Assembly (NCBI GenBank): GCA_903813345.2
Contig: CAIIXF020000009.1
Coordinates: forward strand, 6,070,030 to 6,134,029
Direction: 5' to 3'
Length of the DNA: 64,000 nt
DNA from: Owenia fusiformis
Taxonomy: Eukaryota; Annelida; Polychaeta; Sabellida; Oweniidae
Shown piece by piece: positions 13,740 through 61,100 of the stretch. Under the pieces are notes generated by a model, which made no database searches, was not told where the DNA came from, and saw nothing but the letters and a program-made list of their open reading frames with translations. How positions within the stretch are numbered: position 1 is the first letter of the stretch; every line of letters begins with the position of its first letter. The position numbers were made by a program, and so were the translations under genes.

Positions 13740-13799
13740 GATCTCATACAAGGACTTATGAATATTGGCACCCTTGAATCTGGTCCTGGTGATTCTTCA

Positions 13800-14160
13800 T
13801 GTTTAGATGTGGTATCAGGGTCCTAGAAATTGGAAATACAGACTTGTAAATATGTATCTCTGTATATCAGGCCCCTTGAATCAAATACTATACTGCACTT
13901 ATGGTTCTACCTGCTCAGAGATCTTTATGTGATATCAGAGTCCTAGAAATTGGAAATATGGACTTGTAAATAAGTATCTCTGTATATCAGGACCCTTGAA
14001 TCAAATACTATACTTATGGTTCTATCTGCTCAGAGATCTTTATGTGATATCAGAGTCCTAGAAATTGGAAATATGGACTTGTAAATAAGTATCTCTGTAT
14101 ATCAGGACCCTTGAATCAAATACTATACTTATGGTTCTACCTGCTCAGAGATCTTTAAAC
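13800..14160 (+). repeat. 3' UTR tandem repeat, about 115 bp x 3 (copy 1)
   Basis: Three consecutive units just after the IFT140 stop contain TCCTAGAAATTGGAAATA, TCTCTGTATATCAGG and CTGCTCAGAGATCTTTA. The same three-unit structure follows the stop of copy 2. Confidence 0.9.
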
Positions 14161-25100: not shown

Positions 25101-28100
25101 TGAAATGTTTCCCACCTCCATCCCTGTTGAACCACCTTGCATGTCCCCACTGACTGATTATATTTCCCTCTTTCTGATGAGTGGAATGAAACGTTTCCCA
25201 CCACCTTCCCCATTGAACCCCCTTGCATGTCCTCGTTGACTGAGTATATTTCCCTTCATTCTGATGAGTGGAATGAAATGTTTCCCACCTCCATCCCTGT
25301 TGAACCACCTTGCATGTCCCCACTGACTGATTATATTTCCCTCTTTCTGATGAGTGGAATGAAACGTTTCCCACCTCCATCCCCATCGAACCACCTTGAA
25401 TGTCCCCACTGACTGATTATATTTCCCTCTTTCTGATGAGTGGAATGAAACGTTTCCCACCACCTTCCCCATTGAACCCCCTTGCATGTCCTCGTTGACT
25501 GAGTTATATTTCCCTTCATTCTGATGAGTGGAATGAAATGTTTCCCACCTCCTTCCCTGTTGAACCACCTTGCATTTCCTCGTTGACTGAGTATATTTCC
25601 CTTCTTTCTGATGAGTGGAATGAAATGTTTCCCACCTCCTTCCCTGTTGAACCACCTTGCATTTCCTCGTTGACTGAGTATAGTTCCCTTCTTTCTGATG
25701 AGTGGAATGAAATGTTTCCCACCTCCTTCCCTGTGGAACCACCTTGCATGTCCCCACTGACTGAGTATATTTCCCTTCTTTCTGATGAGTGGAATGAAAT
25801 GTTTCCCACCTCCTTCCCTGTTGAACCACCTTTCATGTCCTCGTTGACTGAGTATATTTCCCTTCATTTTGATGAGTGGAATGAAATGTTTCCCACTTCC
25901 ATCCCCATCGAACCACCTTGCATGTCCCCACTGACTGAGTATATTTCGCTTCTTTCTGATGAGTGGAATGAAACGTTTCCCGCCTCCTTCCCTGTTGAAC
26001 CACCTTGCATGTCCCCACTGACTGAGTATATTTCCCTTCTTTCTGATGAGTGGAATGAAATGTTTCCCACCTCCTTCCCTGTTGAACCACCTTTCATGTC
26101 CTCGTTGACTGAGTATATTTCCCTTCTTTCTGATGAGTGGAATGAAATGTTTCCCACTTCCATCCCCATCGAACCACCTTGCATGTCCCCACTGACTGAG
26201 TATATTTCCCTTCTTTCTGATTAGTGGAATGAAATGTTTCCCACCTCCTTCCCTGTTTAACCACCTTGCATTTCCTCGTTGACTGAGTATATTTCCCTTC
26301 TTTCTGATGAGTTGAATGAAACGTTTCCCACTTCCATCCCCATCGAACCACCTTGCATGTCCCCACTGACTGAGTATATTTCCCTTCTTTCTGATGAGTG
26401 GAATGAAATGTTTCCCACTTCCATCCCCATTGAAACCACCTTGCATGTTACTGTTGACTTCCCCTTTTCCTCACGTAACACAGCATTTATTATAGGTGAC
26501 TTTAGGAAATTGTAACACATACATACCAAACCCTAGAATTAGTAAAACCCAAATATCAACAAAACTCTAATATTCCCCAGGCTTAATCTTGGATTATTGC
26601 TGTCTGGCAGTTTCAAACATAGACTGGTTTAAGATTTGTGATTGATTGAAATTATTCAGCACTAACCATTTACATACAGTCGTACTTGAAAATCCCATAT
26701 TATAATAAGTCTGGATGGATGTACACAAATTCAAATGATCTGGCAAATCTGATTTTGTTCTCTGAGAGGAGAAAACTGAAAGTGTCAAGTGGCTAAAAGA
26801 GAAATATTCTAGCAGGCTCCATGATTTTTTCTGTCATGACTTATTTGTCGGTATTATGATGAAATCATTCAAATATTTGAAACAATTGGAAAAATCTTGA
26901 TCTTTATCCATTCAATGCTGGATTAATATAAAATTCCTCTGCATGCTTGATTGATTTTAGGATTGGCATCTGTATACAATCAATTTATGATTAAAATTAG
27001 CTTCATGTTTTCCCTTGTTATTTTTTATTTTGACAGAACATTTTTTAATTTAATTTTAATTTGATTTAATGCGTTATACATGTATGCACATGCACCATTT
27101 TATATAATGTAATGTATAAGATGCATTTATAGTAGGTCTAGGTAAATGTACATTCTAAATTTTACATCCACAATTTCACAATATTTATTTGTATAAATTC
27201 AATTGTAATTCAGGGTACAGACCCTTCAATACCAGATTATATTACATCCCTCTTTTAAATGAGGCCAATTTTTTCAAAAGCGCAATTCCCATTGGCTTTG
27301 GGTCTCAGAGCACTTGCAATGTTCTAGAGTAGTTCTTTGTGCCTGGGTAAATGGCCAGACCTTTCAAAAAACCTTGATGAATGCTTTATTTTTGGTCAAA
27401 AGCAAGGAGCACACTAAGTCTCTTTTGTCAAAACTCAGACTATGAAATCAGTTAGTTTAAATGTCTCCTAGTCCCTTGTTATGGCCTCATCTGCCACATT
27501 GACTCGTTACAATTTCATTATGCATACTATATATTGTTCTTTTGAGACATTGTTTATTCCAATTTCAGAGGAAAGAACCAAGCAGCTCGTGATATTGCAG
27601 GTAGATTCCCAATCTCCCATTTCTGGGATCCATTGGAGACTAAACTACTGGTGTGTGAGACTAAATCATTGCCTAACCAACAGAGCAAGCTGAACCAAAG
27701 TATTTCTCTTACATCATCCATGTCTAGGGCTACTCTAGAACAACCGGTAAGTACAGTTAAGCTCTTGACTGCCTGAATTCATTATTACATTTTGGACCCC
27801 CTTTATAGACCCTATGTTATTCAAAGCTGTATTTTCCTGTTCAAGGAATATTTATAATTACGGAAAACTAGAATTATGTTTTCTAAGATTTGATCAGTTT
27901 TCTTTTATAAAAACTGAGGGGGATTCAGGCTCTTCATAAGCAGAACAACTTTGTATGTCTCTTGCATCATCAATGTTTTGGACTGCCTCAGGCTCATCAC
28001 TGAACAATATTTGAACAATCCTCGTAATTTCTTAACAAAATGACCGGTATTATTTGCACTGTTGAGAAATGATCGTGTTATTTGTTATTTCAGCCAGAGG

Positions 28101-31100: not shown

Positions 31101-34100
31101 GATAAACACACTTGTCAGTGTTGTCAACAACTAGCAGTCCTTTACCTGGTGCTTCACATATACCCCAGGGGTCTTTGCATTTCCCTATGTTCTTCTGGTG
31201 GACAAGGTTGTGGTTGTGAATACTGATACATTTGTTACTGTAATCAGTTGCTGCATATAAGTTGCCCTGCATACAACATACATCAATGAAATTACCTTTT
31301 GCTGTGTGCAGTTTGGTGAAGGTGTCAGCAGCATAGCTAGACATACCACCTGATGGCTCATGGCATAATACAATGGTATTGTTGTACCCTTTTGTGGCAC
31401 CATATATTTTCTTTACACCTGGATTCTTGTCACCTAGTTTAACTTCTCTTGTTACATTGCTCTTATGTATTCGCCCCATTTTAGCGCTGTCTAGGGTTTC
31501 AGGTTGCTGTAATTTCACCATGTTGGCAGGATCTAATGTTCCAGGTTGATACGTGTATTTGTCCACAGGGTCCTCATCTTCTTCAGGTATTCTTCCCCAA
31601 TCTTGGAGCTTCTTCGCTGTATCAGTGCTTGAATTCATGATGTCAACAGGATGACCGTGTTTTATAAGAGCTGTAAGGTGAAGAAGGGTACTTTCAGCAA
31701 TTCCCTTTTCTAACTCATGCTGGTTTTGCTTGGCCTGAATCACCTTTGTTTTCTCGTGAGCCACAGCTTTAGCTTCATTTTGAAGTTTTTTATGATTCTC
31801 ATTTTGTTCTTTATGTCGCCTCGCCAACTGTTCATCTAGTTCTTTATGGAGCTTTGCAAAATGTTCATCCAGTTCTTTACATTTTGCAGCATGATCTGTA
31901 TCAATCTCTTTAAGTAAAGACTCTCTGTTTCCCTGATATGATTGAAGCATGTCACTTGAATCTTGGATGAACTTCTCGAACAATTCCTTTCTTTGATTGG
32001 CAAGTCCAAAAAGGGCAGAAATATTTTGTTTCTCCTTATCAGCTGCTTCTTCAATGGCTTCACACTTATGTCCTGGATGTTCTGTAATACAGCAATGTGT
32101 GCATACGATGGCTTTATCTTTTGAACAGAAAAACTTAAGCGGCTGATCCTGATGTTTCGGGCATTGTATGTTGCGTTTGACATAGTTGTCCAGCGCTAGT
32201 CTGGCATCTTTCTCTGGATCTCCAGTTAAATCATACATGTTGTGGGATCTGGTACCTTGAGACCGCTTATGCGACTTGTTACATGCCTGGCATAGGTTTT
32301 CAGCACATTCAACACAACGTGATACAGCTGGCACATCATCACCTTCCTGGGCACAGATGTCGCAATTAGCCTTCAAGTTCTTATCACGTGACAGTTGATT
32401 TTCGAGGATTTCAACCATAGAGTTGATGGTAATATTAGTATGGTAGTCATCAACACAATTCTTTGGAATTTCATGTTTGGCATTGCATATTGGACATGGA
32501 AATGTTTTATCTCTTTTCCCCTTATTTTTCTCGATCCAAGTTTTAAGACAGTTCTTACAGTAGGAGTGTCCACAGCTAAGGGATTTGGCATTTTTCAATG
32601 TCCCAGTGCAGATAATACAGGTCAACAGCTCTTGGTATTCATCAATCAAAGCATTTTTTGGACTCAAATATGCCATTTTATCTTTTTTGGACAGTCACGA
32701 TTGTACTCAAGAAGTTGAGGTGTTGGAGTTTGCTTTTATCTATAAGTACACAACAATTTATTTTTAAGATAAGTAGACAGCACTTGAAATAAATTATTAC
32801 ACAATGTCATGAGGCGATGTGACTAAAAATATTCTAGAAAAATAAGCACTTGAACTTCACTTGCAATGTAGAGTCAGTCCTTGACAACATATTGATAAAT
32901 GATTGCCTACAAAAATAAATCAATTTTTAATGATATAAAATTAATTATGCAGCAGCACCCTTTCCTCTCCTGTCCTTGATATAAACTGACATTATCTTGG
33001 AGTAGCAGTTCAGTACAGTTCCATGCCATTTTCCAGGGTTCAAATGATGCACCATCCAAAGAATAAATTGCTAGCTACTATACATGTTGCTGATTGTTAT
33101 ATGGACAACCACTGAACACTGTTATATTTAAACTCCATGTCTGTTGCTTTATTTTGATTCATTTCTTATCATAAATGCCAAATCACACAAACAATTGTTG
33201 TGACTATTTTACCCATCTGTGGACATTGATTCCTGTTTTAAATGTGTCTAAAATATGTGGCACACTCATTTATTTTGCCTTTAAGGTGGATCCACGTGGT
33301 GTTTTAATAAAAACTCATAGGATCACCAATATATTTCTTGAATTAGAAAACACTTGAACATTAAATGAAAATTTGAATATCATAAGACACAGAACTTAAT
33401 GTCAAAAACATTTTGATAAATAAGTTGGAATTATAACAAATTGGTTCTAAATCTATTTCACACATACAGAACTACCTTAAACCTATAATTTAATTTGATT
33501 TTAATTGAAACATTTTCTTGTCACCTTAGAGTTCAGCCCTAACTGTAATAATGATACCAAAACTTGCATATTCTATGTGTACATGTGAAATATGCCATTA
33601 ATTATGATTGCCTTAACAATTTTCTTTTAAATTCCAACTAACAAATAAGTGTGGTATTACTGAGCTGCAAATTCTTCAAACCATCAATGCAAAATCTCTC
33701 TGACAATAATGTAACAATTGCTGGGTCCTTGTGGGTAATGGTGCTGATGGCAAATGATTTTAATGGGGATTAATATAGTTCAATGGAGGTCGAGCATAGG
33801 TACCTTTAATACTTTACATATTTCATCTTCAAAAGATCCCTCATCCCGGAAAATACCCTGTTGCTGTCCACCCATAATTAAGATTTTATGCATTGTGATC
33901 CTCTCACTTTTCACTGCATATTACTTACTTGATAACTGGTTTTCTCCCATGGTAGAGAAACACCTTAATTCAATATTTATCATCATCGCAGCTGGAGGTT
34001 TACTTCTAAACCAAGTGCTTCAGGTACTCATTTCCATGAGTATTTTTGTTAACTTAATTAAACATAGAAACAATACCATAAATCCAAGATTTATCTTAAC

Positions 34101-37100
34101 AAACTCATTTGTTTATACTATAACGGCTTGTTTAACTCCTGGACTTGCCATTTACTTTTATCAGCCAAACACCATTCAGTTAACTCTACTTTTATCAGGA
34201 GACATCCATATGAATCCTGGTCCAACCAGTCCTCTAGGAGTAAACATACTTTTCTCCAATATCAGAAGCATAGGGGCTAATTATGGGGCTCGCTTTCAAG
34301 CATTAGACCACAGAATCATGGAAAATAATGCAAATATTATAGGACTCTGTGAGGTAGGAAACCTTTCTGATTCAAAAATTACTGAAGAATTTTCAATTAC
34401 AGGTTTCCATAAGCCTTACTATTCCTCCAAACATAGAGGCCTTATGATTTATGCCCACAATAATCTTCTCATTAAAGAAAGACCAGATCTTGATTTCCCT
34501 GAACTGGGTGGTCTTTGGCTTGAAGTAAAGGTGAAGGGTAGGAAAATAATGTATGGTGTTTTTTATAGGTCTCCAAGCCAGACTGCACAAGAACGCTTTG
34601 AATTTTGCCAAGCTCTTGAAAGAAATATATCTCTAGTCAAGGCTGATAAACCTAATCTTATCATTTTTAATGGTGATTTTAACGCGAAATCCAAAACCTG
34701 GTGGCTAGATGGCACTGAGGATGCCATTGGCCAGAATTTAAATGATATATTTTTCCAAAATGGTTTCGACCAACTTGTTAAAGGTCCAACACGTGTTACT
34801 ACCTCTTCAAAATCATGTATCGATCTGACCTGTACAAATGATAGATTGCTTGTAGGTGATGTTCAAATTCTGGACCCAATTGGGAATACTGACCATAGTA
34901 CCTTATTATTTAAAGTTGATTTACCTGGTTATGCTTCTACACCTGCACTTAAAACCATATGGAAATATGACCAAGCAGATACTCATATGTTAAATCAAGC
35001 TATAACTAATCATGATTGGAATAATTTCTTTAATAACTATCGAAATCTAGACTCTCTTACAAAAGACTTTACCAGTTTTTTGCTCAAAATTTTTAGGAAA
35101 CATATTCCCAACAAGTTGAAACGTATTAAGGAAAATGACAGACCCTGGTTTAATAGTAAACTTTCCCATGAATTAGGCAAGAAAGCTAAACTTTATAAAA
35201 GATTTCAACATCAGAACACTGATCAAAATAACAATGCATATAAGACTCAGTCAAATTTATGTAAAACCTTGATTTGTGACGCTAAGGTAAACTACACAAA
35301 TTCAATAATCTCCCACCTATCTGAAGAAAAATCTTCTAGCATTGGTTTTTGGTCCAATATCAAGAAACTCCTGGGTAAAAATGTTAAAAATCCAATTCCA
35401 ACAATCCTCAATCAACAACTTGACAAAATTGCCGAAACTAAAGAAGAAAAAGCAGAAATGTTCTTGCACTATTTTTCTCAGACTTATCATTCTGGTACCC
35501 AAAATCAAACCCTTGATGTTAACTTTCCTCTTCGTACCAACAACCTTGTTGAAATCTCTCTCACAACTGTCGAAGAAGTTAAAACTATCATTCAAAACCT
35601 TGACTCCTCGAAAGCATGCGGAGCTGATGATATCACTGTCAAAATGCTACAACTGTGCTCTGAATCTATTTCCATTCCTTTATGCACCTTATTTAACAAA
35701 ATCATTGAAACTGGAATTTTCCCTGATTATTGGAAACTTGGGATAATATGTCCTATCTTTAAAAAGGGTGATAAAAATAACATTAAGAATTACAGACCTA
35801 TAACTCTGCTTAGTATTGTATCTAAAATTTTGGAAAGAATAATTCACAAGCAAATGATGGACCACCTCCTTAAACATGACCTTTTCTTCAAACACCAATC
35901 AGGATTTTTAAAGGGCCACAGTACAGAACACCAGTTACTTGCAATAAATCATTTAATTTCATCAAATTTTGAAAATGGACTAGACACTCGCGGAATATTC
36001 CTTGACATTTCGGCCGCGTTTGATCGCGTACCGCACAACCTAATGGTCAGAAAACTTAAGGCATATGGTTTTAATGGAAATTTCCTAGAGCTTTTTAAAT
36101 CATACCTTTCAAACAGACAAATTAAAGTTAATGTGGAAGGACAACTTTCAAATTCATCAGATGAACACTTCATTGATCTATCTGTACCTCAAGGAAGTAT
36201 AATTGGGCCAATTATGTTTCTCCTTTATATAAATGATCTGCCTGATAGGTTAAATTCAAAATCATTCATCTATGCTGATGACACATCTTTATATGTGCCC
36301 TGTACTCCAAATGACCCAGTCTCTCATCAAATTTTACAATCTGATCTTCAGACAGTTGAAGAATGGTCAAAATTATGGAAACTTGACTTTAAACCGGAAA
36401 AATCAGTTGAAATTGTTTTCTCAAAAGTAAAAAATGAAAATTATCCATTTTTGACTCTTAACAATGCAAAAATCCAAAGAAAAAATCATCATAAACACCT
36501 TGGCTATATTCTTGACTCAACCTTATCAGGATCCCCACACATCTCTTATATCTGCGACAAAGTCCAAACTGCACTAAATCCTTTAAAATCCCTTAAATTC
36601 AAATTAAACTCAAAAATACTCGAAACAATGTATAAATCATATATAAAACCCCTTTTTGAATATTGTGATATATTATATCACAATAGTAATCTAAAAGATC
36701 TCAAAAATCTTGACCGGCTGCAATACCAGGCTGCCCTCATATGCTCTGGAGCACTACATGGCTCCAGCACATCTAAGACATTAAATATTTTAAATTGGCC
36801 TGATCTAACTTTCATAAGAGATTACCACTTTAAGAAAACTATGTACAATATCCAAAATGATAGGGCACCCTCCTATGTAACTGATATATTTCGACCATTC
36901 AAAAACCACAACCCAAGACAACTCCGATATATTCGTGATTACCAAATTCCTCTTAATATATCTACAAAATTCAGAAGATCACCATGTATACAGTTGATGG
37001 AAAAATGGGACTCAGTCCCCAGCAATATCAAAAATAGCCCATCTTCTTATTCATTCAAAAATGAGATCAAATATAAAAACAAAATTATATCAACTTCCAA

Positions 37101-40100
37101 TTTGACCCTGTCACGATCTCAAGAAATCATTCTTAACAGAATGAGAGTGGACTTATTTTTAAAATCACAAATGTACGCTCATAACTTCACAAATGTAGAC
37201 TCACCAAACTGTCAATGTGGCGAAGTCGAAACTGTCAAGCACATATTTTTCAATTGTGGTCTCAACCTGAACTCTCATAATCTAAATGTCAACATCCTCC
37301 ACTTATTAGGTAACCTTCAAATGGACAAAAATGGTCTAATCAAAACATTTTTATTTGGTCATCCTGATCTTTCAACTGAACAGAACATTATGATTTTCAA
37401 ACTAGTTACAAATTTTTTATCAGACAATTCCACTTAATGCTCAAGATGGCCTCCTTATGCTCCAACAGATCATCTTATCACCTTGCCCCAGCACCATTGC
37501 CCAGCAAAGACCAGCAAACCCCTTTGTCAGGAAAATACATCTTTTTCACATACTCAATGTTCTTTTTATATTTAAAGTGAACCTATAATGCTATCCTTCC
37601 ATAGCGATTGGTCACTTATATCAGAAACTATTTGTACTTGTATATAATGAAATAAAACAGATTATAAAAAAAAAATACATGTAGCTACCTACATATTCCA
37701 CATGCATTTGAAGGGAATAACAATTTTAGGCACCCAATATTATCTATTCTCTTCTGAGAGAACAAAAGAAAGATATTTGACATTTTGATTGTGATTCAAG
37801 GTAACTGTTACTTTTTGAAAGTAACAGTTCTGGAAAAGATTAGATTATACATAGCAGGGGATTTTATTTAGTTAGTGAGATTTTAGGGTTTTGGTTGTTG
37901 TTGCATATAAACCTCAAATAATAAGATCAAATGTAGAAGTTAAATAGTACTCATTTCCATGTTTCAACCTCCTTGCATGACTAGCATGTCTGTATATTAC
38001 TTTGGCATACACACTATTAATTGGAAGTGCCTTATTTGTAGTTTCACTCCTTATTCAGAATTGGATGCTCTTTCTATTGATGAAAGAAAGTATATACAGT
38101 ACATGTATGTGAATTTAACAAATAGATTAGTTTTTGCAATGGAGGAGAACAGTCACCATTTGACACCCTGTATAAGAATATTTTTAACATTGTAACCCTA
38201 AACCTACATGAGAGCTTAAAGGAATAAAACCAGAGCTTAGATCAAGTATTGCACTTCAAAGTATATTACTATCCAAAATCCGTAGTTACAGCCATGTTAT
38301 GCATTATTCAATACATATAAAAGTAAAAAGAGATGAACTCACTTATTCATTTTTCTCTATTTTGACACATATTAACAATGATCAAAAGTAATTAATCAGA
38401 AGTAAATAAATTAGTCAATAAATAATGAATTATATTTATTTGTTTTTTTTAATTGAATTTTGGGAAATAAAATACTAAGCTGAGGCCTACCTTATTTCAT
38501 ATGCAGCAAGTGAATACACAATGGCGATGTCACATTTGCTCCCTCATGTTTAATGTCTCCTTGAATCTTCAAATAAATTCTTTGTCGATGGCCTCAATCT
38601 TTTATATCATTCGAAAGTGTATAGTTGGAGACTTGCCAAATTTGAGGATGTTTATTCACGTGTTAGATTACGTTCTAGCCTGGGACGTGCTGCAAATAAA
38701 ATATATTCACATTATTCTGAACTAGATAGTTGTAAAGCCACATACAATAATTGGAATTGGAATGTACTCGAATATGTTTAGAAACAATAACATTCTGATC
38801 CTTTAATGGTCTGTCATATTTTGATTCCAGTGAAAGTGTTTGGGAGAACATGGCTAAGATGTGTGTGAAGACTAGAAGGTTAGATGTCGCCACTGTCTGT
38901 CTGGGCAACATGGGGCATGCTAGAGGGGCTAAAGCTTTACGTGAGTCAGTTGCTGAACCACAATTAGATGCCAGGGTTGCTTGCTTGGCAGTGCAACTGG
39001 ATTTACATGTACGTTTAGTTTACATTTAATGTTCTCATGTATTGTTTTTTGTAACTTCCAAAAAAGATCTGTACAACATTTCTGATCCATTTTATGTCAT
39101 TGGCCTTTGACTTTTCAAGAATATATTTAGGATATCCTATGATTTTTGATGGATACCATTTTTATCCATGAGGGGATATCACCCATCTCCAGGAGTGAGC
39201 ACAGCGATTGAGTGGAGATTAGAGATATCCAAGAGTAGATAAAAATCATAGCCCTAGAAAATCATAGGATATCATATTTATCCTATGGTCCCTATTTTTG
39301 TATGGACTTAAAATAATTTGACCTAAAAGGTCGGAAACGATTTTAGTGGTGCACATCAAAATTATCTTGTGTCATTATCCCCATATATATTTAGTATCCA
39401 TCGCATAAATTGAGGTATCTCATCCTTTAAGTGTATATATAGCCTTGCCCAAGTCGGTATTTTTTACTTATCTGATCTTGAATTATTACCGCCTTGTACA
39501 ATCCAATACACCTGCGCTGATATTATGCAGAGTTATTCAACGGTTTCGAGATTTCCATAATACCTACGCTATCAGGGGTATCGCGAAACCTTATGGATTA
39601 ACAGATATACGCGTGGACAGTCTGGACACGACGTGTGACTTCAGGCTGATTGACCAATCAAAAACGTTATCAGGTTGACCTGCATAAGCAAAGCAATCTT
39701 CCCGATTTGAAATTCAATGCCGATGATCTGATCGATCGTTTCTTTAGAGTTACAATATATTATGTAATTAAATGTACATAGGGAATGTAAGAGTCATTAA
39801 TATAAATTAGATATATAAATTAAATCATGCAATAGATTTAAAACTGATTTCGCGATGAAAATGCAAGACCGAGTCCAATGTAGCGGGTCATGTAGATTGA
39901 ATCTCAGCCTACATATTCATTTGAATTCAGCGATCGTTTTAACGTTTATTGTTGAAATCTTCTCACCTCCGGTTACCGATCGATGCTCCGGCATCCACTA
40001 AACTCTGATTGATATTTAACTGATAAAATATTTGTATTTTCATGATGAATTCATGCAAGTTTGTTCGTGAAAAGTCCCGGCGAAAAGTAAAAAGTGTACT

Positions 40101-43100
40101 TGTTTTTGACCTTGCATAATAATGAGCTAACGCTGTAGGGCCGTCGCTGATTGGTCAAATTTTACCGACATAAATATTGAGTCGGTAAAGCACGTGGCTT
40201 TCTCTTTGGTACAAGGCGGTCATAATAGAAATCAAGATAGTAAAAGAGACCGACTTGGGCAAGGCTAGTGTATATAAAGCAGATCAGATCTATAATTTTT
40301 TGAGAATTAGTCTACAGATTGTTGAGATATTCAAGTAAATTGTAATGGACTCTCCTGTTCCAACTTTGAATATTTATAGGCTACTTATCAACATTTTATT
40401 TTGTGACAGAAAATGAAATTTGAATATTTGAGAAAGTACAATATGTTTTGGATGCGAACCATGATATATAATCTGTCAGCTATAAAGTGAAAATGGTATG
40501 TTTGAAATGTTGCAGGAAGATGCAGTGAGGCTACTGAAAAATTGTAAACGGTATGACCTTTTGAATGACTTCTACCAGAGCAATGGCCAATGGGGCAAGG
40601 CCATGGAGACAGCTGAGATGTATGACAGGGTACACCTGAGGACAACGTACTACAACTATGGCAAACATCTAGAGACCAAAGGAGACGTCAATGGAGCAAT
40701 TCCAAAGTAAGTCTATTTCATTAGGTTTAGGATTATTTTACAAAATATCACTCAATAAGAAGGCTTAGGTAAATGCTAATTTAATTGCTAACAAGTAAGT
40801 TCATTTCTATCTGATATTGCTTTGGTGAAATAAACTATTTACGTTTAAAAGGTGTCATACATGTATGGAAGGAACACAATGATCATTCTGGATTCTAAAT
40901 ATATGCAAATGATCATTATTAGCAAAGAATATCAAATAAGAATGGACCCACTGGAGCAGTTTTCTGTGTTATATGTACTTTACAATTGTCTAAAACATAC
41001 TGTACGCCCGGTATTATTCGCGTGCGATTTAGTTTCGCGCTTTTCGCGAGGGTGTTAAAATCATGAAAAATTATCGTCACGAAATTGCCAATTAAATCCC
41101 CGGGAATTTCGTTTTACCCGGGGCTCTGATGCATTTTGCTTGGTTTAATGCGCAAATATCCGAATCTCAAAATCGAACCTGCGCAGATTTCCCCTAGTGT
41201 ACTACTAGTACTCTTTGCTTTATATTTTTTTTTTTATACATTATCAATTTATTTCATCATAATCATGTTTTACAAGAATGGCTTGCCAATCGCTTATAAA
41301 GCATTATAGGCTAAGCTAGAAAATACATAAATTTAATTACAAATGTAAATGCATGTAATATGGAAGAATAGCAGCAATTTGGATAAGAAATGGGAAATAG
41401 GACAGGCTGGGGTCATGTGTCATAGTCTCAGTGAGGGAATAGTAGGCATAGTTGATACTTGCTTGGAGGGTCCCATAGAGAATTATGATTATGTTAAGAG
41501 TTCTCCAGCAAAAAGTTCATTATTTTGTGCCAGCGATAAATCTTCACTGCCATGTTTCAGAAAATCTATAAATTGGCTTTTGTTCCTTATAGCTAAAGGC
41601 TTGTAAGTCTCTACAAGTGCAAGAAAAGTGTTCCTATTTTGTGCTTTATTTGGACAATAAAAGAATAAATGTTTTGGAGTTTCAGGCACACCACAAGCGC
41701 AGTTTGGTGTTTCAATATAAGTAAAATTATGGCCATATAGCTGAGCTTTAGTGAGCAAGTCAACTCTGAATCTATTGAGAATTATTTCTTGATTTCTTTT
41801 TAACTTTAATTTAGTAGTTGGTAAAAAGGAGGGCTTAGGGATTTTATTTTTTTGTAAGTTATTGAAGCTGGTAATTGTTGTGCTTTCTCGAATATACTTT
41901 GGTAGCTTATTCCAGTGGGAGATAGCATTGAGGACAGAAGAGTTTCTAAATTTGGTTGAGCTTTTGGCAGGTATTTTGAAATCAGGATTTGATCTGAGTT
42001 CTCGGGGATTTTGAATCCTCAGAGGTTCAAAGATATCTTTCACATAGCTTGGAGTGAGATTATTTTTAACTCTAAACATGAATTTATTTATTTGCATTGA
42101 CCGCCTTGTTTCTAGATCAGGCCATGTGAGTGTATTCTTTACCTTAATTGAACTACTACCATGTAAACATCCACTGCATATAAGAGTAGCTTGATAGAAT
42201 AATTTATTTAATATGTTAAGGACACTTTGAGTAGAGGAATCGTAGAGTATTGCGCCATATTCAAAGTGTGGTCGAATGAAAGACATGAAAATAGTTTCGA
42301 GGACATTGGAATTTAGTTTCTTTTGCAGTGATCTGAGAGGATTCAGGAGCTTGTTTACTTTGTTTCTTATGGCAATTATATGCTGTTTGTTAGACATGTG
42401 CTCATCAAAGGTATAGCCTAAATGTTTATGCGATGTTTCCCTTTTTATTAAAGCATTATTCATAAAGGAATTGTTCACTTGGCCAAGTTTAATCCTGGAA
42501 TTATGAAAAATTATTTCGACACTTTTTTCAGGTTTAAAGTTGAGTTTCCATTTAATAGACCATGATTCAATTCTTTCTATTGCTTGGGTTACTTTGTTAT
42601 CAATTTCTGAAGGATTTTTAGTACTAAACGGGAAGTATATAGACGTATCATCTGCATATATAAAGCAATCAGTATTCATATTATCGGGTAGGTCGTTTAT
42701 ATATAGTAAGAAGAGAAGGGGACCTAGTATTGATCCTTGTGGCACTCCACTTTTGATAGCATGTGTTTGTGATAAAGATGATGAGGATCCTGAAATGTTC
42801 ACTCTGACTCTTCTTTCGTAAAGATAGGATTTAAGGAGATTTAGAACTTGTCCCTGCAGACCATATGATTTTGATTTAAGTAGTAGAAGATTGTGAGGTA
42901 CGCAGTCAAAGGCGGAGGCAATATCAAGAAAAAGAGCTTTAACTCCCTTACCTTGATCAAGATTTGATTGGATAAGATGTTCAATGGCAACAAGTTGGGA
43001 TTGGGTACTGTGACCCGGCAAAAATCCAGATTGAAATTTGAATAACAGGTCATTTGAAATGAGATGTTGTTTTATTCTGTTTGCAATTATTCTTTCAAAA

Positions 43101-46100
43101 AGTTTTGATATACAGTCCAAAAGAGTTATAGGTCTATAATTTGACAGGTCTGACTTGTTATTTTTCTTGTGGATTGGGCAAATGCTACCAATCTTCCAAG
43201 ATTTTGGAAATACGCTTTGCTGTAATAACATGTTAAATAATTTAGTCAAAGGATAAGAGATTGAAGGAGCGGATAAATGGAGCATTTTATTAGTAATGAG
43301 ATCAGGGCCACAAGCCTTGGATGTGTCTAAACCTAGGATCAATTTCATAACTTCGGATACATCTGTTCTAATCGAAACAAGAAGGGAATTTGTTCGCATT
43401 GGAAAGGTGGGTTTGTAATCATCGGGGATATTGTTGTCATATTTATTCACAAAAAAATTAAGAAAGCCATTTGCCTTGTCAGTGTTTGTATTTAAGGTTT
43501 TTCCATTTGTATCATAAAGAGCTGGAATACTACTTGAAGTGTTATTTCTCCCTATTAATTTGGTTACCAATTTCCAAAAGTTTTTATCATTCTTATTTAA
43601 GGATTCAACTTTTTGTATGGCATTTTTTTCATGTTGAATTTTAGCTGAGGATATAAGATTTGAAACTTTAAGGGCCTGGTTTCTGTAGAGTTCAAAATTT
43701 AAAGGACATGGGTTTTTTTCATTACGTTTATATAACTGTCGTTTTTTATTCATTTCAACCTTTAAATGCTCATTATACCATGGTTGATCATTTGATTTTA
43801 TTGTTTTAGTGTGATTTGGGATTTTCTCATGATATATACATTTGAGTTTCTCTATGAAATCAGAAGTGCATTTATCCAAATCATTTGAACTTGTCAAGAT
43901 ACTATCCCAGTCAGTTTGTCTAATTTCATTATTTAAATTTGCTATATTTGTTTTGTCATATTGATACAGAGTTCTTTTAAATGGAGGATTCCTTGTAAAG
44001 TTGAGATTTAAAGTTGTAAAAAGGGTACCATGATCAGATCTTCCAATAGGAGCATCGATTGACCAAGAATCAATAGAGTTTGGTGAATTTGTAAAGATAT
44101 GATCGATGCAAGTTTTTGAAGTGCTAGTTATCCGTGTTGGTTTGTCAACTATTTGTATAAAATTATGTGCATCAAGACAGTCTAAAAGTAATTCACCAGC
44201 AAGATTTTCATCATTCTGAAACCAAGCTGGATTTTTTGCATTGAGATCTCCCATGAGTAAAACTTGATCATATTTATTTGCATCGTTTTTAATGATATCA
44301 AGTTGCTGATGTAAACGGTTAAAATAAATTCGAGTTTCTTCTGCAGATTGACTTGGTGATCTATAACAAATGCCGAAAATGATCTTTTTGTGGTCAACAG
44401 AGATTTCAGCTAATAAGATATCAAGATTATTAATGTAGAGATTATGATTATAAGGCTTAACAGAAATATCTTCATGAGAATAAATGACAAGTCCTCGACC
44501 TAGTGGAGTGAAAAGTGGATTCCGGTAGTGTTCTAACTTTAAATCGGGAAGATCAAGGCTATTTTCAATATTTCCAGTTTCACACAACCCTACAAAGCTT
44601 GGATTCAAGTCAGTCACTCTTTGCTTCAGGTCTTCAAATCTGGAGCCTGAATCCGCAAGTAAGCTATTAATGTTTTAAAAGAGGAAGGAAATCTTTTCAC
44701 ATGTTTTGGGACCTGGGTTAGGATGTACGTCACCCGCTAGAATAAGTAGACAAACAAGTGATGGATTCAGTAGGTATATTGCTGAGCCTGGTACCAATAA
44801 GAATAGGCTAAATAATGCAGTAGCTTGAATCATGGCAAGTGGATTGAAATGTTTAACATTTTTAATAATGAAGAGAATAATACTTACTGGTAGAGCACAA
44901 AAGAAGAGCACAAAATGTGACATGAATAGCAGTGTTATTACCACTACGTAGCAGTATGCAAAATGTTTCAGAGTTACTATCAGAATTGTAGATAGTATAC
45001 CCATTACCATTAGCATGAGAATGAAAATAATCATTGACCTCATATTAGTTGGGGTGTGGTCTGTCTTAAGTTTGGATGAAGGGGCATAAGTAGAACTGTT
45101 GTAGGATCCTATACGGGCCCTCCATAATTGCAATGTTATACCTGCACCTTTAACCTATACCATCCCTCACTGGAGAGTTGACTAGACACAAGAATAAAAG
45201 ATGTATGAAAAATGAACCCCAAATGCCTATTCCAATATTCATGTCAAAGATATTTAGAGTTCTTATCATTGTATGCTAAGTAAGTCAGACACTGGAATGA
45301 AGCTGCTTCCATACTTTAACAGTAAGAATAAAATGCATTAAATAAATTCTATATACACACAGTACTGTAAAAATTATTTCTCAAATTAGTACTCCCTGGT
45401 AAAAACAAAACAAAATGGGAGATCAAAGTATAATCATATATTGCAAGATAAAGCATAGTCCACACTGATTGTATTTGCTAAAATACAATTAGATGGGACA
45501 TACTCCACACTGGTGTGGAATAAGATGTGAGATCTTATGTAGCAACGTATTGTAATTGGTATAGAGATACAGTAAGATGGAACATGCTCCACAATGGTGA
45601 TGCATGAGATAAGAGATCAAATTGAAAGATCAAGTGGCAAAGACTGTATTTGATATAATAAAACAGTAACATGGAACATGCTCAATACTGGTGAAAAACA
45701 ACTGGATAAGAGATAAATTAGCAAGGTGCGGTACTGAGTATTATATACCAAGACACCACTTGCACATAATGCATAGTAGGGAAAAACAAGATGAGAAATA
45801 AGGTAGAAATGTACTATATTTGGTAAAATATAGCAAGATCAATACGAATAATTAATCACTTATTCTTTAATGAAATTGATGTTGTATCTTTCTCAGTTAC
45901 AACTCTAGTCCTAGTGATTTCACACTGGAAAGAAAAACAATAGCTGATAGTATGAGTAAGTTAATAAGAAAATGTTTCAGCCAGATTAGGCTATTCACTT
46001 GAGTGAGTGATTTACTCAAAGTCATATAAGGCAATTGTGATCTTGTAATGACATGAGTAGAAACAGTGATATTTGATTTTCAAGGCTGACTGTTGTTATA

Positions 46101-49100
46101 GTCCCAAAGTTACTACATCTAAATTATTACTGTATTCATGAAAAAATAATACCGTTACTCCTCATGTCAAGACTAGAAAAACTGACCTTGCCAATAGAAA
46201 ATGTACAATAGCTGTATAGCTACAGCTCTACATATGTCAATAGTTCATGGGGACCTGTCATTATTAATTTTGAGGATCCAATATGTCATGGGCTTGAGCC
46301 TCAGTTACAAGAATTTTGCTATCAGTTAAGGCCTCTACTGAAATTTCCTTGATAGCATTAAGTTTGTCTTGAAAGTATACATTACGTGGGCCCTTCCATA
46401 TGGTTATGATGACAATGGCATTTTCCACATTAGCCCCCTTGAGAAGAGTGTTAATATGAGTCCCAGTACCATACGATCCATCATCATCGTGGCCTTCTGT
46501 GGTCGGTTTGCCAGGGGGTGATACACGGTAGGAATACACATTGTGGGTGGCAGTTGCAAGGCTTCTGTCTTGGTAGATCTTGGCAAGAGCGGTTTTGGCT
46601 TCAGCTTCAGATTTAACCTCCATTACGTGGGCCTTAAGCCTTGTGCCATTAATGTTTCTGACCGTAGACTGATGCAGCTTTCTGTCCAGGATGGCACTAT
46701 CAAGTAGGGTATCTACTGGCAGAGTGTTCTTGTTGAAGTTTGGGTTAACAACACAGTTGTTAAGGTAGAGAGTATCATTTTTCAGAGATACCTTCTCTTT
46801 CTTTTCCTTTAACTCCTTAAAGAGTGGGTATTGGGCATTCCTTCTGCTTGACATGTCAGCTGGCAACTGGTCTTGGATAGAGAAATTACTGCCTCGCAGA
46901 TTTCTGGCATAAGACATGACCAGTTCCTTACTCGATCGGTCCTTGAAGACAACAACTATTGGCTTGTTGCCTTGAATTGGGGCACCAAAACGATGGGCAA
47001 TGTCCACTTTAATTTTGCCGTTTAGGAATTCTTCAGATTCAATTAGTGGACGGGGGATTTTCATATCCTCACAGAGAAATCGTATTACGATGGCCTTACT
47101 CTGGTTCATATCCTCATGGGTGGAGGGCTGGGGTAGGTTTTTAATAATAGCATTTCTCTTCATGCTCCTGAATCTGATATCGCATATATCATCCTTGACT
47201 TCAGATTGAGATGTCTCCAATCTTGCAGATCGACCATCAAGCGTTGATATTAAGTCCATCAAGTGCTTATTTTCGTTTTCAAGCTCTGTAATTTTCACAT
47301 TTTGTTTTTTGTTACAGGCTTTTAGTGATTTCATTTCCTGCTCCAGTGCAATAACTCTGGCTTCCATACTGGTGGCTTGTGGACTTCCTGAAAACTTGCG
47401 TTTTTTCTGTACTTTAGGTGTAGACATACAGAATGATCAGTCCCCAGTTGACAAAATGGCAAAAAGTTATGTGGGATATATCCTCAATATTTATGTGTAG
47501 AGTTCAGCTTGTATATTGGCAGTTTACCTATGCCTTGTTCATGACTATAATCCTAGTATATTCATAGACAATCCAGTGGTAGTTTGATATAGTGTAAACT
47601 GTGCTAATCCATATAAAATACTGTATAAGCAGGAGCAACTATTTATCCAACTTCACATATCACATGCTATATCAAATTTGCTTTATATCAGGGGGGATTT
47701 CCCATAGATTTTTTGACCTTTGCTATTGGCACGTTAGATAACCAATTTTATAAACTGACCTCATTTGCCATTGAAATGATACTAGTACTGTATCCCAATG
47801 TTTGCTGTTGCTTTATGAGTTTTCTTTACAAGTTTGGATCGAGTTATAGTACTTCAATAGTACTGTGCAACTCCATGACTTTACTATGCGCATGCGCGGT
47901 AATGAAAGAGCATGTGCGCATGATTGTTCACGTGATCGTCGCCTGCAATTTGATTGGACATCATATACTGGGGAATCCCCGAATACGATAAAATACAGTA
48001 TGAAGTACTATTGGCTTGTTGCCTTGAATTGGGGCACCAAAACGATGGGCATGCAATGTCCACTTTAATTTTGCCGTTTAGGAATTCTTCAGATTCAATT
48101 AGTGGACGGGGGATTTTCATATCCTCACAGAGAAATCGTATTACGATGGCCTTACTCTGGTTCATATCCTCATGGGTGGAGGGCTGCACAGCGCTGCCAC
48201 AGCGCTGTCGCAGCGCTGTGACAGCATATAGGCTTAAACTGATGGCTGGATCAATTTCAGCGACAATGCTCTCACATCCATACGCTGCGAGAACGCTGTG
48301 AGAGCGCTGTCACAGCATTGTATTTCCATCCATCGCTGCGAGAGGGATGTGACAGTAATTAAGTGGCTGGATCAATTACAGCAACATGCTATCTTAGCCA
48401 GAGTTTGTGGCAGCGCTCTCACAGCGCTCTCACAGCCCTCTCACAGCAGGAAGTACCAATGCATTGTGGGTTAAAAAATTCAAACTGAAAATCAGTTAGA
48501 GCAGGAAGTTTGTAGGAGGAAAAAGCAAAGGAATTATGCTGAAATGGCCATCATATCATTACTGATTTATAAAGCACATGTAAGGTATTGTACTACTGAT
48601 TATTTATAGATACCTTTGGAATGTTTTAGTGATCTAAGGAAAAGGATCAAATGATATGAATTTTGTGCAAGTTAGTACTGGTTAAACTAGAAGTCTGAAA
48701 TATCAATGTATATAGTCCATATAAACTATATGTCCATATAAAGACTTGCAGATGAACTTTGTAATTTCAGAAAATTCCAGGTTGGTTCACATTTGATAAG
48801 TTGAATGGGTTAAATGACTTTAAATATGTATGCAAAAATGCCAAAGGAAAGGACCAAAAATTGTTGCAGAACCCACCCAGACATAAGAAAAAAACATGTT
48901 GGGCCTGAAGCCAATGAGGGGGTCACCTTTCAGAAAATTCACAGTTGGTTCACCCCTCCTCCCTCTCCTGCCAGTCATAAGGAAAACAAACTCCAGCTAA
49001 TTTCATGGCCAGTTCATTTAAATATGAATATAAATGAGTTGGTCATGAATTAGTAGGTTAATCCATCAGCCAACAACCAGCAGTTGGATTGGCAAATGTA

Positions 49101-52100
49101 AGCTAAGTCGATCAAGTCAAAGAGAGTAATTGTTTATGAAACTTGTCAAATAAATATAGTACAATAACGTCATTTCTAAGGGCAATATAGTGAAATATTG
49201 GGCCGAGGGTATGTATGCAGCAAAAATAGTGACTGGCCAGGTTTAACAGTGTGACTGGTAAGATGTAACAGCTATTTTTTAATTTTGATTACCTATTACT
49301 AGTATTACAAGCCTAGAATCTACTTTTTCCATGCTGAATTTGAAATTTATAATTTGGAACGTTTTAAAGATATTTAAATTTATAGGCTATAGGTAATTAA
49401 GATTTATGTGTATGAAGGATACATAATCAATGCCATATATGGCAATGCTGTGACAGCGCTGTCGCAGCCTCATTTGCATGGTACATTCCGATGGGCTGTC
49501 ACAGCGCTTTGAGAGCGCTGTCACAGCGCTGTGAGAGCGCTGTCGCAGCGCTGTGACAGCGGGCTGTGAGAGCGCTGTGAGAGCGGGCTGCGAGAGCGCT
49601 GTGACAGCGTGCTGCGGGAGCGCTGTGACAGCAGGCTGTGAGAGCGCTGTGACAGCGGGCTGTGACAGCCAGTAAATTTGTATAAGGGTGGGGTAGGTTT
49701 TTAATAATAGCATTTCTCTTCATGCTCCTGAATCTGATATCGCATATATCATCCTTGACTTCAGATTGAGATGTCTCCAATCTTGCAGATCGACCATCAA
49801 GCGTTGATATTAAGTCCATCAAGTGCTTATTTTCGTTTTCAAGCTCTGTAATTTTCACATTTTGTTTTTTGTTACAGGCTTTTAGTGATTTCATTTCCTG
49901 CTCCAGTGCAATAACTCTGGCTTCCATACTGGTGGCTTGTGGACTTCCTGAAAACTTGCGTTTTTTCTGTACTTTAGGTGTAGACATACAGAATGATCAG
50001 TCCCCAGTTGACAAAATGGCAAAAAGTTATGTGGGATATATCCTCAATATTTATGTGTAGAGTTCAGCTTGTATATTGGCAGTTTACCTATGCCTTGTTC
50101 ATGACTATAATCCTAGTATATTCATAGACAATCCAGTGGTAGTTTGATATAGTGTAAACTGTGCTAATCCATATAAAATACTGTATAAGCAGGAGCAACT
50201 ATTTATCCAACTTCACATATCACATGCTATATCAAATTTGCTTTATATCAGGGGGGATTTCCCATAGATTTTTTGACCTTTGCTATTGGCACGTTAGATA
50301 ACCAATTTTATAAACTGACCTCATTTGCCATTGAAATGATACTAGTACTGTATCCCAATGTTTGCTGTTGCTTTATGAGTTTTCTTTACAAGTTTGGATC
50401 GAGTTATAGTACTTCAATAGTACTGTGCAACTCCATGACTTTACTATGCGCATGCGCGGTAATGAAAGAGCATGTGCGCATGATTGTTCACGTGATCGTC
50501 GCCTGCAATTTGATTGGACATCATATACTGGGGAATCCCCGAATACGATAAAATACAGTATGAAGTACGGTAAAGTTATTATGGGAGCTACGCACTTTTG
50601 CTTTAATATTAAAAATGACGATGCAATAGAGGTTGATATGCAGCTTGCCGATGATAAAGATCCCAGTTATTGTAAATCTCATCCAAATATGACATCAGGT
50701 AAGTGCAATGCCTGTACATCTAACTTAATTTACACACGAGTAGCTCGAGAATTCCTGGAATAGTAATGAATTTCCAACTTGTGAAATTCGCGAAATTTAA
50801 TAGCCGCGAAATCGTGTTTTCGCAAAATTCGCGAAATTAAATCTCGCGAATAATACCGGGCGTACAGTAGCTTCTTTATGCCATGATGAAATGTGACACA
50901 TGAATTTATTTATGATTTTCAGCTATGAGAAGTCTGAGACTCACAGGTTTGAGGTTCCAAGGATGTTGTTTGATGACACACAGATGTTAGAGAACTATAT
51001 TGTCAAGAATAAAGACAAGTAAGCATTTACAGATCATCCAGATTTGTTGATGGGTTTGATTTGTTAGTTAAATCATTTAATAAATCATGAAGTACATTTA
51101 CCAAACAAGTACAAAAAAATGAAGTACATTTCAGAAAAAAGTAAAGCCAGGCCCCAAAAATAGAATATGTACAAATGTTTGCTGAACTTGTATTCCTGAC
51201 AAATAAATCTTATAATCTTTAGGCAGTTGCGTAAATGGTGGGCCCAATATATGGAGAGTGCAGGAGAAATGGAGACAGCTTTACAGTTCTACGAGGCTGC
51301 AGCCGACTATCTCTCTCTAGTGAGAGTCTACTGTTACTGTGGCAACCTTGACAAGGTACGTAACTGCTTATAATTCTAAACCTATAGACTTTCCAATATG
51401 GCTGCTTAATTCAAAATGGCAACAACTGTTTCATAAAAATAGAATTTTTGATAACTCAAATACCAATGTCAGATTTTATGTGCTCAAGAAGAAATTTTCA
51501 ATATTGCTACTGAATTCAAAATGACCACCATTATTTAGAAGAAATGATTGTTGAAATCAAAACCTTATGGGCATAAACCTCTTCTTGACAACGAATGCCT
51601 TGTCAAGGGTGTAGATTTTGAAAAAAGGAGACAATACTACAGTCTGGTTATTTCTAACATGAAATATTCAAAATGATGTCATTGATTTGTGATATGTCAT
51701 TGTCAGGATAAAATACGTTTTTTTGCTGCTATTTAATATGTTGAAAGGTTGATAATCTGATTTAATTATATTGGATGTGTAGCAGTTGGTCAACATAATG
51801 GAACAAAAATCATGTCTTGTAGGCAGCTGAGATCTGTAATGAGACTGGGGACAGGGCAGCGTGCTATCATCTAGCCAGACAATATGAGAACAACAATGAA
51901 ATCAAACAAGCCATTCACTTCTTCACTAGGGCCCAGGCTTATGGAAATGCCATACGACTATGCAAGGTCGGTAAAAATATTATAGCCTTTGTTAGGACTA
52001 GATAGTTAATTAAATAGAATTTACAATTTAAGATATCTTTATCATCTATGAAAACAAACCAGAATACTGCTTGCACAATTTTGCTTATACAGGGTGGGCC

Positions 52101-58100: not shown

Positions 58101-61100
58101 GCAGTAGGCAAAAAGGTAAGACAATATAGTGTACCATTCTGTTATAGATTATGAAGCTTGATGCTGCTTTTCAAATCGGAAATTGTGGTGTGTACACCCC
58201 CAAAATGCAATCTGATTTTCGACACGGTTTCGGCACCAAATGGACTGACTAGTCCGGTGGCAAATTTTGGTGTTGAAAGGTTTCAGTGCCGGAACAGTGT
58301 CGAAACGTTGCAGGAACAGCGCCAAATTTTTTTGATGCCGACGGCGCCGAATTTTATTGGCTGTGTAGCAGGGAGAATAGAATGTCATAAAATTCTAGAA
58401 ATGTTAGATCAGTTCCATTCACTATTATTTTTGGGAAAATATAAAAAAACTGAATTTTCATTACAACATACATCAACCATAATTTTGATTATACAATGTA
58501 CTTTGAATTAGATATCATCCTTATCCATCGTTAGTTTAAATTGTTTATAAATGGTGTGGCTAAAGATGCCCAAATAATCCCCAGTATACTGGGCTGTATT
58601 TTGTACATCTGTGATTTCTAGTACATCGAGGCCCTAAAACTATGCCACCAACACCAAGTGCCAATGACAGAGGAACTAGTAGAGAAACTGACACCTGCTA
58701 AAGGGGTGGCTGAGAATGAAACTGATGAGAGAAACAGGTAGGTGATCTATTAATGCTTCATCTAATCATTTAGTTCTAGCTTTTTCTTCAGATGATTTAA
58801 TCTATTAGTCTAACATTGATTTATTTGTAATGTTTTGTCCACATTATCATTGAATTAGAACAATTTAGGTTTTGATTAGTATTAGAAATACTAGTATATG
58901 TTTTATTTTAAAAATTATACTGGTTTTCTTGAAGAAAGATGGCATGATCTTAATTGAACTTTTTCTTTACACTCTAGGATATTAGAAGGAATAGCTGAAG
59001 TGTGTATGAACCAAAGACAATACCATTTAGCAACTAAGAAGTTCACACAGGCTGGAAATAAAATGAAGGTACATTGTGCATTGTATTTACAACCTTACCC
59101 ACAAGTAAAACAATCTGGATTGATGTTTGTGTGATAAAAATGCTGAAAAATAATTTAAAATGGATTAATGCTAGTTCAACTGATTTCTGATTTGATTCTC
59201 TTTCTCTCTTTTTTCATGACAATAGTCCGAAACAAGTTATATTTTTTTATTAATCATATTTTTTATTTCAAGTTCATATATTATAACATTTAATATCATA
59301 CAATGAAAAATCAACAAGGTTAATCAATTTAACATTTGTTAAATAAGTTATATCAATAGATAAACCTTGCTGTTAGTTTCTTATTTTGATTTAGAGTATA
59401 ACATCATGTTTTATTCTAAGTAAAATTGATTATGCTGATATAATTTACAATAGTGCTCCAAATATAGCTACCAGCAAACTTGAAAGACTGCATTATAATG
59501 CAGCTTGTCTAATTTCCGGTGCTCTGCATGGTTCAAGCACCTATAAGGTCTTGAAGACATTAAATTGGATTACTTTGTCTGAGAGAAGAAGAAGCCATCT
59601 TTGCTCATTTCTATTTAAAAATAGAATCAATTTTTCAGCTTCATATGTCACTGAATTATTTAATAAATACTTACATGAACCAAATAGAATTCTAAGGGCT
59701 GTCAGAGAGTATATTGTGCCTCTAAATATCAGCATTTCATTTAGAAAAACTACATATTTTGCTGCGATTGAAGAATGGAATGGTCTGCCTAATGATTTAA
59801 GAAATTGTAATAGAATATCAACTTTTAAAGGCAAACTTAGAAAGCATTTCGGGAATGAAAAATGTATAAATATAATAGCATCACTTGATATCACTAGAAA
59901 AACTGAAATTATATTTAACAGGTTAAAAGTGGACCTATTTCTAAAAAGTCAATTATTTGCTCATCACTTTACAAACATTGACTCACCAGCCTGTAACTGT
60001 GGTCATGAAAATGAAACCCCTACTCATTTTTTCCTCAAATGCCCTCAATTTGTAAATGATAGAATCCAACTACTTATAGATCTCCATAGTATTGGTTGTT
60101 TAGAAAAATTCTTAGATGCTAACTCTGTTAGCAAACTAAATATGCTCTTGCATGGTAACAGTGAACTTAGTAATGAAGATAATACACTTCTGCTGAAAGC
60201 AACTTTAAAATTCCTACAAGCAACCAAGATCGACTAACATGTATATTACACCATCCCATAATTTACACCACTGCACACCTTTTTTTGTAAAGCATTCCAA
60301 TATCAGCTTTAATTGTACTTTTTCCTTTTTGTTTATATATGAATAGTTACGAATAATTGTAACAAATTTGTATTGCATATAAGTGTATGGTATATTTACT
60401 GCGAAGTTCAACACAAATGTTAAATTGATTAACCTTGTTGAATTTTCATTGTATGAAATTAAATGTTATAATATATGAACTTGAAATAAAAATGATTAAT
60501 AAAAAAAAACATCATGTTTTTGCTGAATTAGATTAAATTAAATGCTATATGTACAGTGCTTTCCTCTATTGATACTGTATTTATCTAGTAATTTGAACTA
60601 TGTATTTCATCAAATATATATCTGTTTATATGCTTTTTATGCCACTTTCAATAGCATTAAATTTATATACAGTGAAACCTGTCCGATGGAATACCTCTCT
60701 GTAGGGAAAACCTATGAACAAGGAATGCTTTTCAAAAGAACCAAATATTTTTCCATTGACTTACATGTTAACGGACCTTCTCTGTAGGGAAAACCTATGA
60801 ACAGGGAACAAGGAGCACTATTTTGGGGCAAATTATGAAAATTCACCTGTGAACAAGGAATATGGAATATTGGTGACACTGTATATTCCATTATTTTTCA
60901 GAGGTGTGAAAGTTTTAAGCCAATATCTGAATATAAAAAGCTTGGATTAATATGATTGAGATTAAGATGAGCAATTGTTTACATGATGTAGCATCCCACC
61001 CACTGTTAATTACCCGGATTTATATTAAAACTAATACTAATCTGTTTGTTACTTATTATCATGACACTAATTCTTACTTTCAAAAACCTAATTACATCAA

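Follow-up and report, generated by a model that had tools for sequence, protein, structure and literature searches.

Results

The locus and its surroundings

The window, that is, the whole stretch of 64,000 nt that was analysed, holds two duplicate units (1524-14365 and 30074-64000), whose matching blocks are 82-97% identical and which contain a TRIM-NHL gene, IFT140 exons and their flanks; to judge by the IFT140 and TRIM-NHL genes, it is animal DNA. An IFT140 intron of the second unit is occupied by an insertion of 9,868 bp bounded by terminal inverted repeats (TIRs), for which the paralogous first unit shows an empty site at about 8337-8340, and a retrotransposon, LINE-B, is nested within this TIR transposon. 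Rfam and tRNA scans of the whole window gave no matches. The larger features of the locus are the following.

41000-50867, unstranded: TIR transposon in the IFT140 intron, with 22-bp perfect TIRs and a TA duplication, including the nested LINE-B and later rearrangements
41226-47676, minus strand: LINE-B retrotransposed unit of 6,451 bp, comprising a 249-nt 5'UTR, ORF1, a spacer of about 1.1 kb, ORF2 and an A-tail
47677-47688, minus strand: 5' target-site duplication of LINE-B, with a further copy at 50237-50248 in the tandem duplicate
41214-41225, minus strand: 3' copy of the LINE-B target-site duplication, immediately following the A-run
41489-45133, minus strand: ORF2 frame of LINE-B, with an N-terminal hydrophobic region, a GDVHPNPGP motif, an APE endonuclease and a reverse transcriptase
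48007-50568, minus strand: tandem duplicate comprising the 5' flank and 5'UTR of LINE-B together with part of ORF1, interrupted by a 1.5-kb insertion at 48187-49685

The stretches 47126-48008 and 49686-50568 agree at 882 of 883 bases, and the tandem duplicate may be recent or an assembly artefact; it leaves the intact ORF1 and the ORF1-ORF2 spacer untouched. The 1.5-kb insertion carries, near its ends, arrays of an 11/24-bp palindromic unit resembling GCTGTGACAGC.

Across the window, LINE-A, LINE-B and a LINE-C fragment sit in gaps of the duplicate match, and in the second unit only. Comparison of the units (33083/37682 versus 4404-4406) marks LINE-A, whose ORF2 lies at 33754-37437, as another insertion; no ORF1 was seen upstream of this ORF2, so that LINE-A is probably 5'-truncated and hence uninformative on ORF1. 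At 59395-60207 the C-terminal part of a third LINE ORF2 was noticed, which shares 34 and 38% identity with the two others, and 17.5 copies of an 87-bp unit form an array at 24926-26448 with frames open on both strands.

LINE-B as a single element

Both ends of LINE-B carry a 12-bp duplication, ATATAAAGCAAA; its 3' copy directly abuts the A-run, and its upstream copy lies 250 bases before the ORF1 start. When 46264-48008 was dinucleotide-shuffled 2000 times, a flank match of at least 12 bases arose 6 times, and a 10-base match is also present in the flanks, 13 bases further on and further from the A-run than the 12-base match. Since the 12-bp duplication encloses ORF1 and ORF2 together, LINE-B is taken as 41226-47676, with both ORFs in one insertion, and the linkage of the two ORFs, which the earlier note had assumed, thereby gains its support. 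A different account would make ORF1 foreign to LINE-B, either as a gene of the TIR transposon or as a frame joined to the endonuclease and reverse transcriptase by assembly or nesting; it could draw on the position of ORF1 inside the TIR-bounded 9.9-kb insertion, about 1.1 kb from ORF2, and on the adjoining 99.9% duplicate, which could be an assembly artefact. We find this account scarcely credible, as the enclosing duplication leads us to reject ORF1 as a gene of the surrounding transposon, the duplicate does not touch the ORF1-ORF2 stretch, and ORF1 is of the L1 type.

Pfam searches of 41489-44617 within ORF2 recovered RVT_1 (2.8e-34) and Exo_endo_phos_2 (4.3e-15), and as read from its sequence LINE-B is a full-length APE-type non-LTR retrotransposon. 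ORF2 contains one in-frame stop (44675-44677), suggesting that this copy may be inactive, with read-through of the stop as another conceivable reading, and its N-terminus is without an in-frame ATG where LINE-A has one. In both LINE-A and LINE-B, ORF2 begins with a hydrophobic, possibly membrane-spanning region which ends in a 2A-like motif (44708-44731 on the minus strand in LINE-B; residues 150-157 of the plus-strand ORF2 in LINE-A), followed by the endonuclease; the motif differs in both where the canonical one has E, and 2A-like motifs in LINEs have already been published (PMC4981915). The long spacer between ORF1 and ORF2 displays, at 45468-45838, a degenerate direct repeat which is 66% identical at an offset of about 81-85 bases.

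A UPF0029/IMPACT domain in ORF1

ORF1 was found as the earlier note had read it, and its parts are arranged as follows.

46264-47427, minus strand: ORF1, 387 aa, intact, without internal stop
47176-47379, minus strand: predicted coiled coil, within residues 17-84, from sub-cut-off Pfam models and a heptad pattern
46741-47175, minus strand: L1-type RRM and CTD region, about residues 85-229
46387-46641, minus strand: UPF0029/IMPACT domain, residues 263-347, Pfam PF01205
46477-46488, minus strand: DDDG motif, kept, residues 314-317
46390-46401, minus strand: IWKG, degraded (RWFGG in Yih1), residues 343-346

That a LINE ORF1 carries an IMPACT/UPF0029-like domain had been proposed from the letters, and the profile search bore it out far above chance: Pfam UPF0029 (PF01205) matched the whole ORF1 at E=2.4e-11, scoring 44 bits where the cut-off is 27, and matched the quoted stretch at E=2.3e-12. 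The NCBIfam YigZ/IMPACT model reached E=1.5e-4, but its 21 bits stay far under the full-length cut-off, which is 168. Among PDB sequences, phmmer paired ORF1 residues 261-361 with Yih1 (6bqi) at E=3.6e-4, and the C-terminal 134 residues gave Yih1 at E=5.5e-5, in a test whose noise is marked by a designed repeat protein at E=6.3e-5, the sum of six insignificant 18-residue stretches. By local alignment, ORF1 and the Yih1 segment, which is 27% identical to the ORF1 domain, score 16 SD over shuffles, and none of 1000 shuffles reached that score.

The quoted motifs are present, and the DDDG is kept. In the second conserved loop of the family, ORF1 reads IWKG and then PRNVYF where Yih1 has RWFGG, and we accordingly judge its RW-GG loop degraded, as had been proposed; the RW/RY-x-GG loop, in the form of Yih1 or of the YigZ type (RYFGG or RYYGG), is not encountered in ORF1, and the Pfam UPF0029 cut-off does not demand it. 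The acidic last 37 residues lie outside the Pfam match. No RWD domain was detected in ORF1 among Pfam matches up to E=10, and Pfam found no DUF1949-type second domain.

The L1-type part of ORF1 and its relatives

The earlier note had also described an L1-type coiled coil and RRM-like region. The coil is weakly indicated by several coiled-coil Pfam models in residues 17-84, every one under its cut-off, and by a leucine-rich heptad pattern. The RRM part emerged once two relatives were added: ORF1 alone gave no L1-ORF1 match at E<=10 by Pfam or phmmer, with HMMER filters that drop most weak matches, while a joint profile of ORF1 with the two relatives (L015 and L016) matched LINE-1 ORF1p structures (2ykp 1.0e-4, 2ldy 1.7e-4, 2yko 1.8e-4), and for this reason residues ~85-229 are assigned to the L1-type RRM/CTD.

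These relatives came from searches of bacterial assemblies. A reverse-transcriptase motif pattern picked out five contigs in bacterial assemblies, by appearance host contamination, two of which (L004 and L006) had a readable ORF1, and the search with our ORF1 in those five assemblies gave matches in two at E<=0.01. The six-frame protein search placed L015 at E=1.9e-10 (residues 38-226, 28% identity) and L016 at E=0.007; their scores against ORF1 stand 24 and 13 SD over shuffles, respectively, with 0 of 1000 shuffles reaching either. Both come from assemblies of mollusc symbionts: L015 lies on a contig in the assembly of the Bathymodiolus brooksi gill symbiont, the assembly to which L005 also belongs, and L016 on one in the assembly of the Alviniconcha boucheti endosymbiont, to which L003 also belongs; both contigs are presumably host DNA, mussel in the case of L015. 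Each ORF1 sits just upstream of an endonuclease-type ORF, with Exo_endo_phos over the Pfam cut-off for L015 and just under it for L016. No Pfam match to UPF0029 was detected in the ORF1s of L004, L006, L015 or L016, that of L016 being cut at its 5' end, and the L004 and L006 ORF1s appear unrelated to ours by hhalign (E=0.62), with 59 and 206 of 300 shuffles, respectively, reaching the score.

No second ORF1-UPF0029 fusion was found in the bacterial assemblies, viral contigs, plasmids and phages searched. Around assembly G004, ORF1 matched in 1 of 83 at E<=0.001 in the family and 1 of 83 in the order, both being L015 again; none of 298 assemblies in the order of G002 matched at E<=1e-4, and none of 84 in the phylum of G003. 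Nothing useful was returned from plasmids and phages by tblastn of ORF1, from viral contigs with ORF1, ORF2 or the domain alignment, or from genome contigs with ORF2, and the reverse-transcriptase pattern had no match in viral contigs. Because the bacterial assemblies were searched only for stray host DNA, the empty ORF1 searches say little. PF01205 was detected in two of the five motif-bearing assemblies (L017 and L018), and we presume these to be bacterial YigZ genes.

Predicted fold of the domain

A model of ORF1 residues 246-387 reached pLDDT 78.7 and pTM 0.78, with pLDDT >=70 in 115 of the 142 modelled residues. Foldseek returned 917 PDB matches at E<=10, only three of them below 0.001 and all three UPF0029 structures: Yih1 (3.2e-8), TT1547 (2cve, 1.6e-6) and YigZ (1vi7, 1.1e-5). 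The alignment rows behind the model were four Pfam-confirmed, bacterial-type UPF0029 proteins from viral contigs (L007-L010), so the predicted fold leans in part on the homology already assigned; yet the closest structure was the eukaryotic Yih1 although those four rows were bacterial-type. They were taken from eight viral-contig loci picked by motif, and L011-L014 were left out: L011 and L014 gave no Pfam match to UPF0029, and L012 and L013 carry nearly the protein of L011. In that alignment the DDDG loop is shifted by two columns relative to the Yih1/YigZ loop comparison given below. Folded from its single sequence, whole ORF1 gave a poor model (pLDDT 37.8). The structure prediction thus returned a UPF0029-type fold, in support, not proof, of residues 246-387 adopting the YigZ/Yih1 ancient-domain fold.

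Origin of the domain

In ORF1 the loop that follows DDDG is as long as that of Yih1, and E. coli YigZ has two residues more there. Over shuffles, the ORF1 domain scored 7.8 SD against L009, a bacterial-type protein from a viral contig (0 of 1000 reaching the score) and 2.1 SD against YigZ (47 of 1000), and BLASTP of ORF1 against YigZ was insignificant (E=0.085). Loop spacing and shuffle scores support a domain of the eukaryotic IMPACT kind. Given this spacing and the higher score of Yih1, we read the domain as an animal IMPACT domain acquired by the LINE; the source was probably an animal IMPACT gene, and the capture probably an old one.

Discussion

Possible role of the module

We are highly confident of the anatomy, in which the ORF1 of the APE-type LINE-B is L1-type and carries at its C-terminus a UPF0029/IMPACT module of the eukaryotic kind. 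The domain, its position within ORF1 and the joint insertion of ORF1 and ORF2 can be read from the sequence itself. To the whole explanation, which joins this anatomy and the origin of the domain to an accessory-binding mechanism, we give a rough probability of 0.55. The mechanism taken singly, in which the IMPACT module serves an RNA chaperone as an accessory binding part, is a tentative choice that we place slightly below even odds.

L1 ORF1p forms trimers, and the ORF1p of LINE-B would trimerise through its predicted coil, while its basic RRM/CTD would coat the LINE RNA. The near-neutral IMPACT module would then bind a partner from the host, which is most likely associated with ribosomes, and this binding might hold the particle close to the LINE RNA under translation or aid its assembly. 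In the literature, L1 ORF1p chaperones nucleic acid (PMC4120745), Yih1 and IMPACT associate with ribosomes (PMC7140605), and the invariant residues of Yih1 and YigZ, which cluster in loops on one side, are read as a binding face (PMC4503747).

The earlier note had gone from the domain to GCN1/GCN2 translational control, and this step was not borne out. It is true that Yih1 and IMPACT inhibit GCN2 by competing for GCN1 (PMC7140605, PMC4503747) and associate with ribosomes, and that the module belongs to the eukaryotic IMPACT type, so that a LINE restraining the host GCN1/GCN2 stress response, and thereby keeping its RNA translated, can be pictured. However, the contact with Gcn1 is ascribed to the RWD domain (PMC7140605, PMC4503747), which is absent from ORF1, and the RW-GG loop is degraded; the ancient domain itself is present in all kingdoms with its function given as unknown in those two sources, and the sole partner hinted at is Cdc28, for which Yih1 residues 133-258 are a possible contact (PMC4503747). 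With the RWD absent and the Gcn1 contact ascribed to it, the accessory module remains our best guess and GCN2 control a minor one, with little to commend it. A fuller version, in which the captured host module docks LINE particles on ribosomes or the GCN1 complex, keeps hold of its own translating RNA and locally quietens the stress response, is also improbable, if marginally less so.

The UPF0029 fold is related to domain 2 of ribosomal protein S5, and this kinship would suit a module which equips the chaperone with a surface for binding RNA or ribosomes, in the manner of the CCHC knuckles of type I ORF1s. Residues 255-350 are slightly basic (pI 9.35, net charge +3), and transcript binding and chaperoning are seen as the tasks of the RRM, esterase and CCHC parts in ORF1s (PMC4120745). 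On the other side, the net charge is +10 for residues 85-250 and -4 for residues 351-387, which leaves residues 255-387 near neutral at -1, and this near-neutral charge makes the added part no obvious RNA-binding extension; RNA binding by the UPF0029 family was likewise not found in the literature consulted. We hold such a surface to be possible though unlikely, and continue to prefer an accessory module that binds a host partner.

It could also be that the module is a passenger, a captured fragment tolerated at the ORF1 C-terminus and now decaying, as may be suggested by the loss of one of its two conserved loops (the RW-GG motif), by the acidic tail outside the Pfam match and by the single known copy of the fusion. 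An open frame, with a Pfam score well over its cut-off, at only 27% identity to Yih1 is hard to square with a passenger free to decay, and the confidently modelled share of the C-terminal part speaks on the same side; we therefore rate a decaying passenger as rather unlikely, and below the added binding surface, and retain the accessory module as the preferred reading.

Comparison with known systems

With reference to the literature, the varied ORF1 domains (PHD, esterase, CCHC, RRM) have been proposed to act on RNA, chromatin or membranes (PMC4120745), and an ORF1 addition that stems from a translation-associated host family would be of a new type. Metcalfe and Casane (2014) recorded CCHC, RRM, PHD, esterase, zinc-finger, leucine-zipper, coiled-coil and transposase-22 domains among 448 elements, and UPF0029/IMPACT is absent from Table 1 and from the text of that survey (PMC4120745). 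In the full text of open-licence literature, UPF0029 was not found together with a retrotransposon or transposable element, which is weak evidence of absence, and no IMPACT-ORF1 fusion is described among the titles and abstract openings of the matches listed; where UPF0029 and 'reverse transcriptase' occur in one paper (PMC6822775), coupled bacterial domains are concerned and not this fusion. The statement that no well-described LINE class has this layout therefore agrees with the open-licence literature searched. The combination of an L1-type ORF1 with a C-terminal IMPACT-type domain is new to that literature, and copies may well exist elsewhere; with LINE-B ORF1 there is a definite subtype for which animal genomes can be screened. 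As the ancient domain is widespread and its function is given as unknown, a LINE that keeps it on an RNA-binding protein would provide an independent handle on its partners.

Among retrotransposons, the type II (L1-type) ORF1s of CR1/L2-lineage LINEs are alike in having an RRM and CTD ahead of an APE-RT ORF2, and also a coiled coil, which in LINE-B is weakly predicted, and some of their subgroups bear extra domains such as PHD, whereas the addition in LINE-B is C-terminal and not a PHD (PMC4120745). The esterase ORF1s (PMC3905857) resemble LINE-B in being LINE proteins with an extra domain, and the viral helicase in TRAS and Jockey LINEs (PMC6338049) is a captured domain as in LINE-B, but in both cases the domain and the hosts are others. 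The nearest ORF1 found, that of L015, ends about 45 residues past the CTD without UPF0029, unlike that of LINE-B. On the side of the domain, YigZ and TT1547 (1vi7, 2cve) share the fold through their N-terminal UPF0029 part, but they match ORF1 more weakly in sequence, the YigZ loop is two residues longer, and the DUF1949-type second domain, present in two family members, was not found in ORF1. Yih1/IMPACT (6bqi) is the best match in sequence and in fold, with the ancient UPF0029 domain and an equal DDDG-loop spacing; it differs in that ORF1 has no RWD and a degraded RW-GG, and in that LINE-B has the domain joined to a retrotransposon protein of a predicted RNA-binding type.
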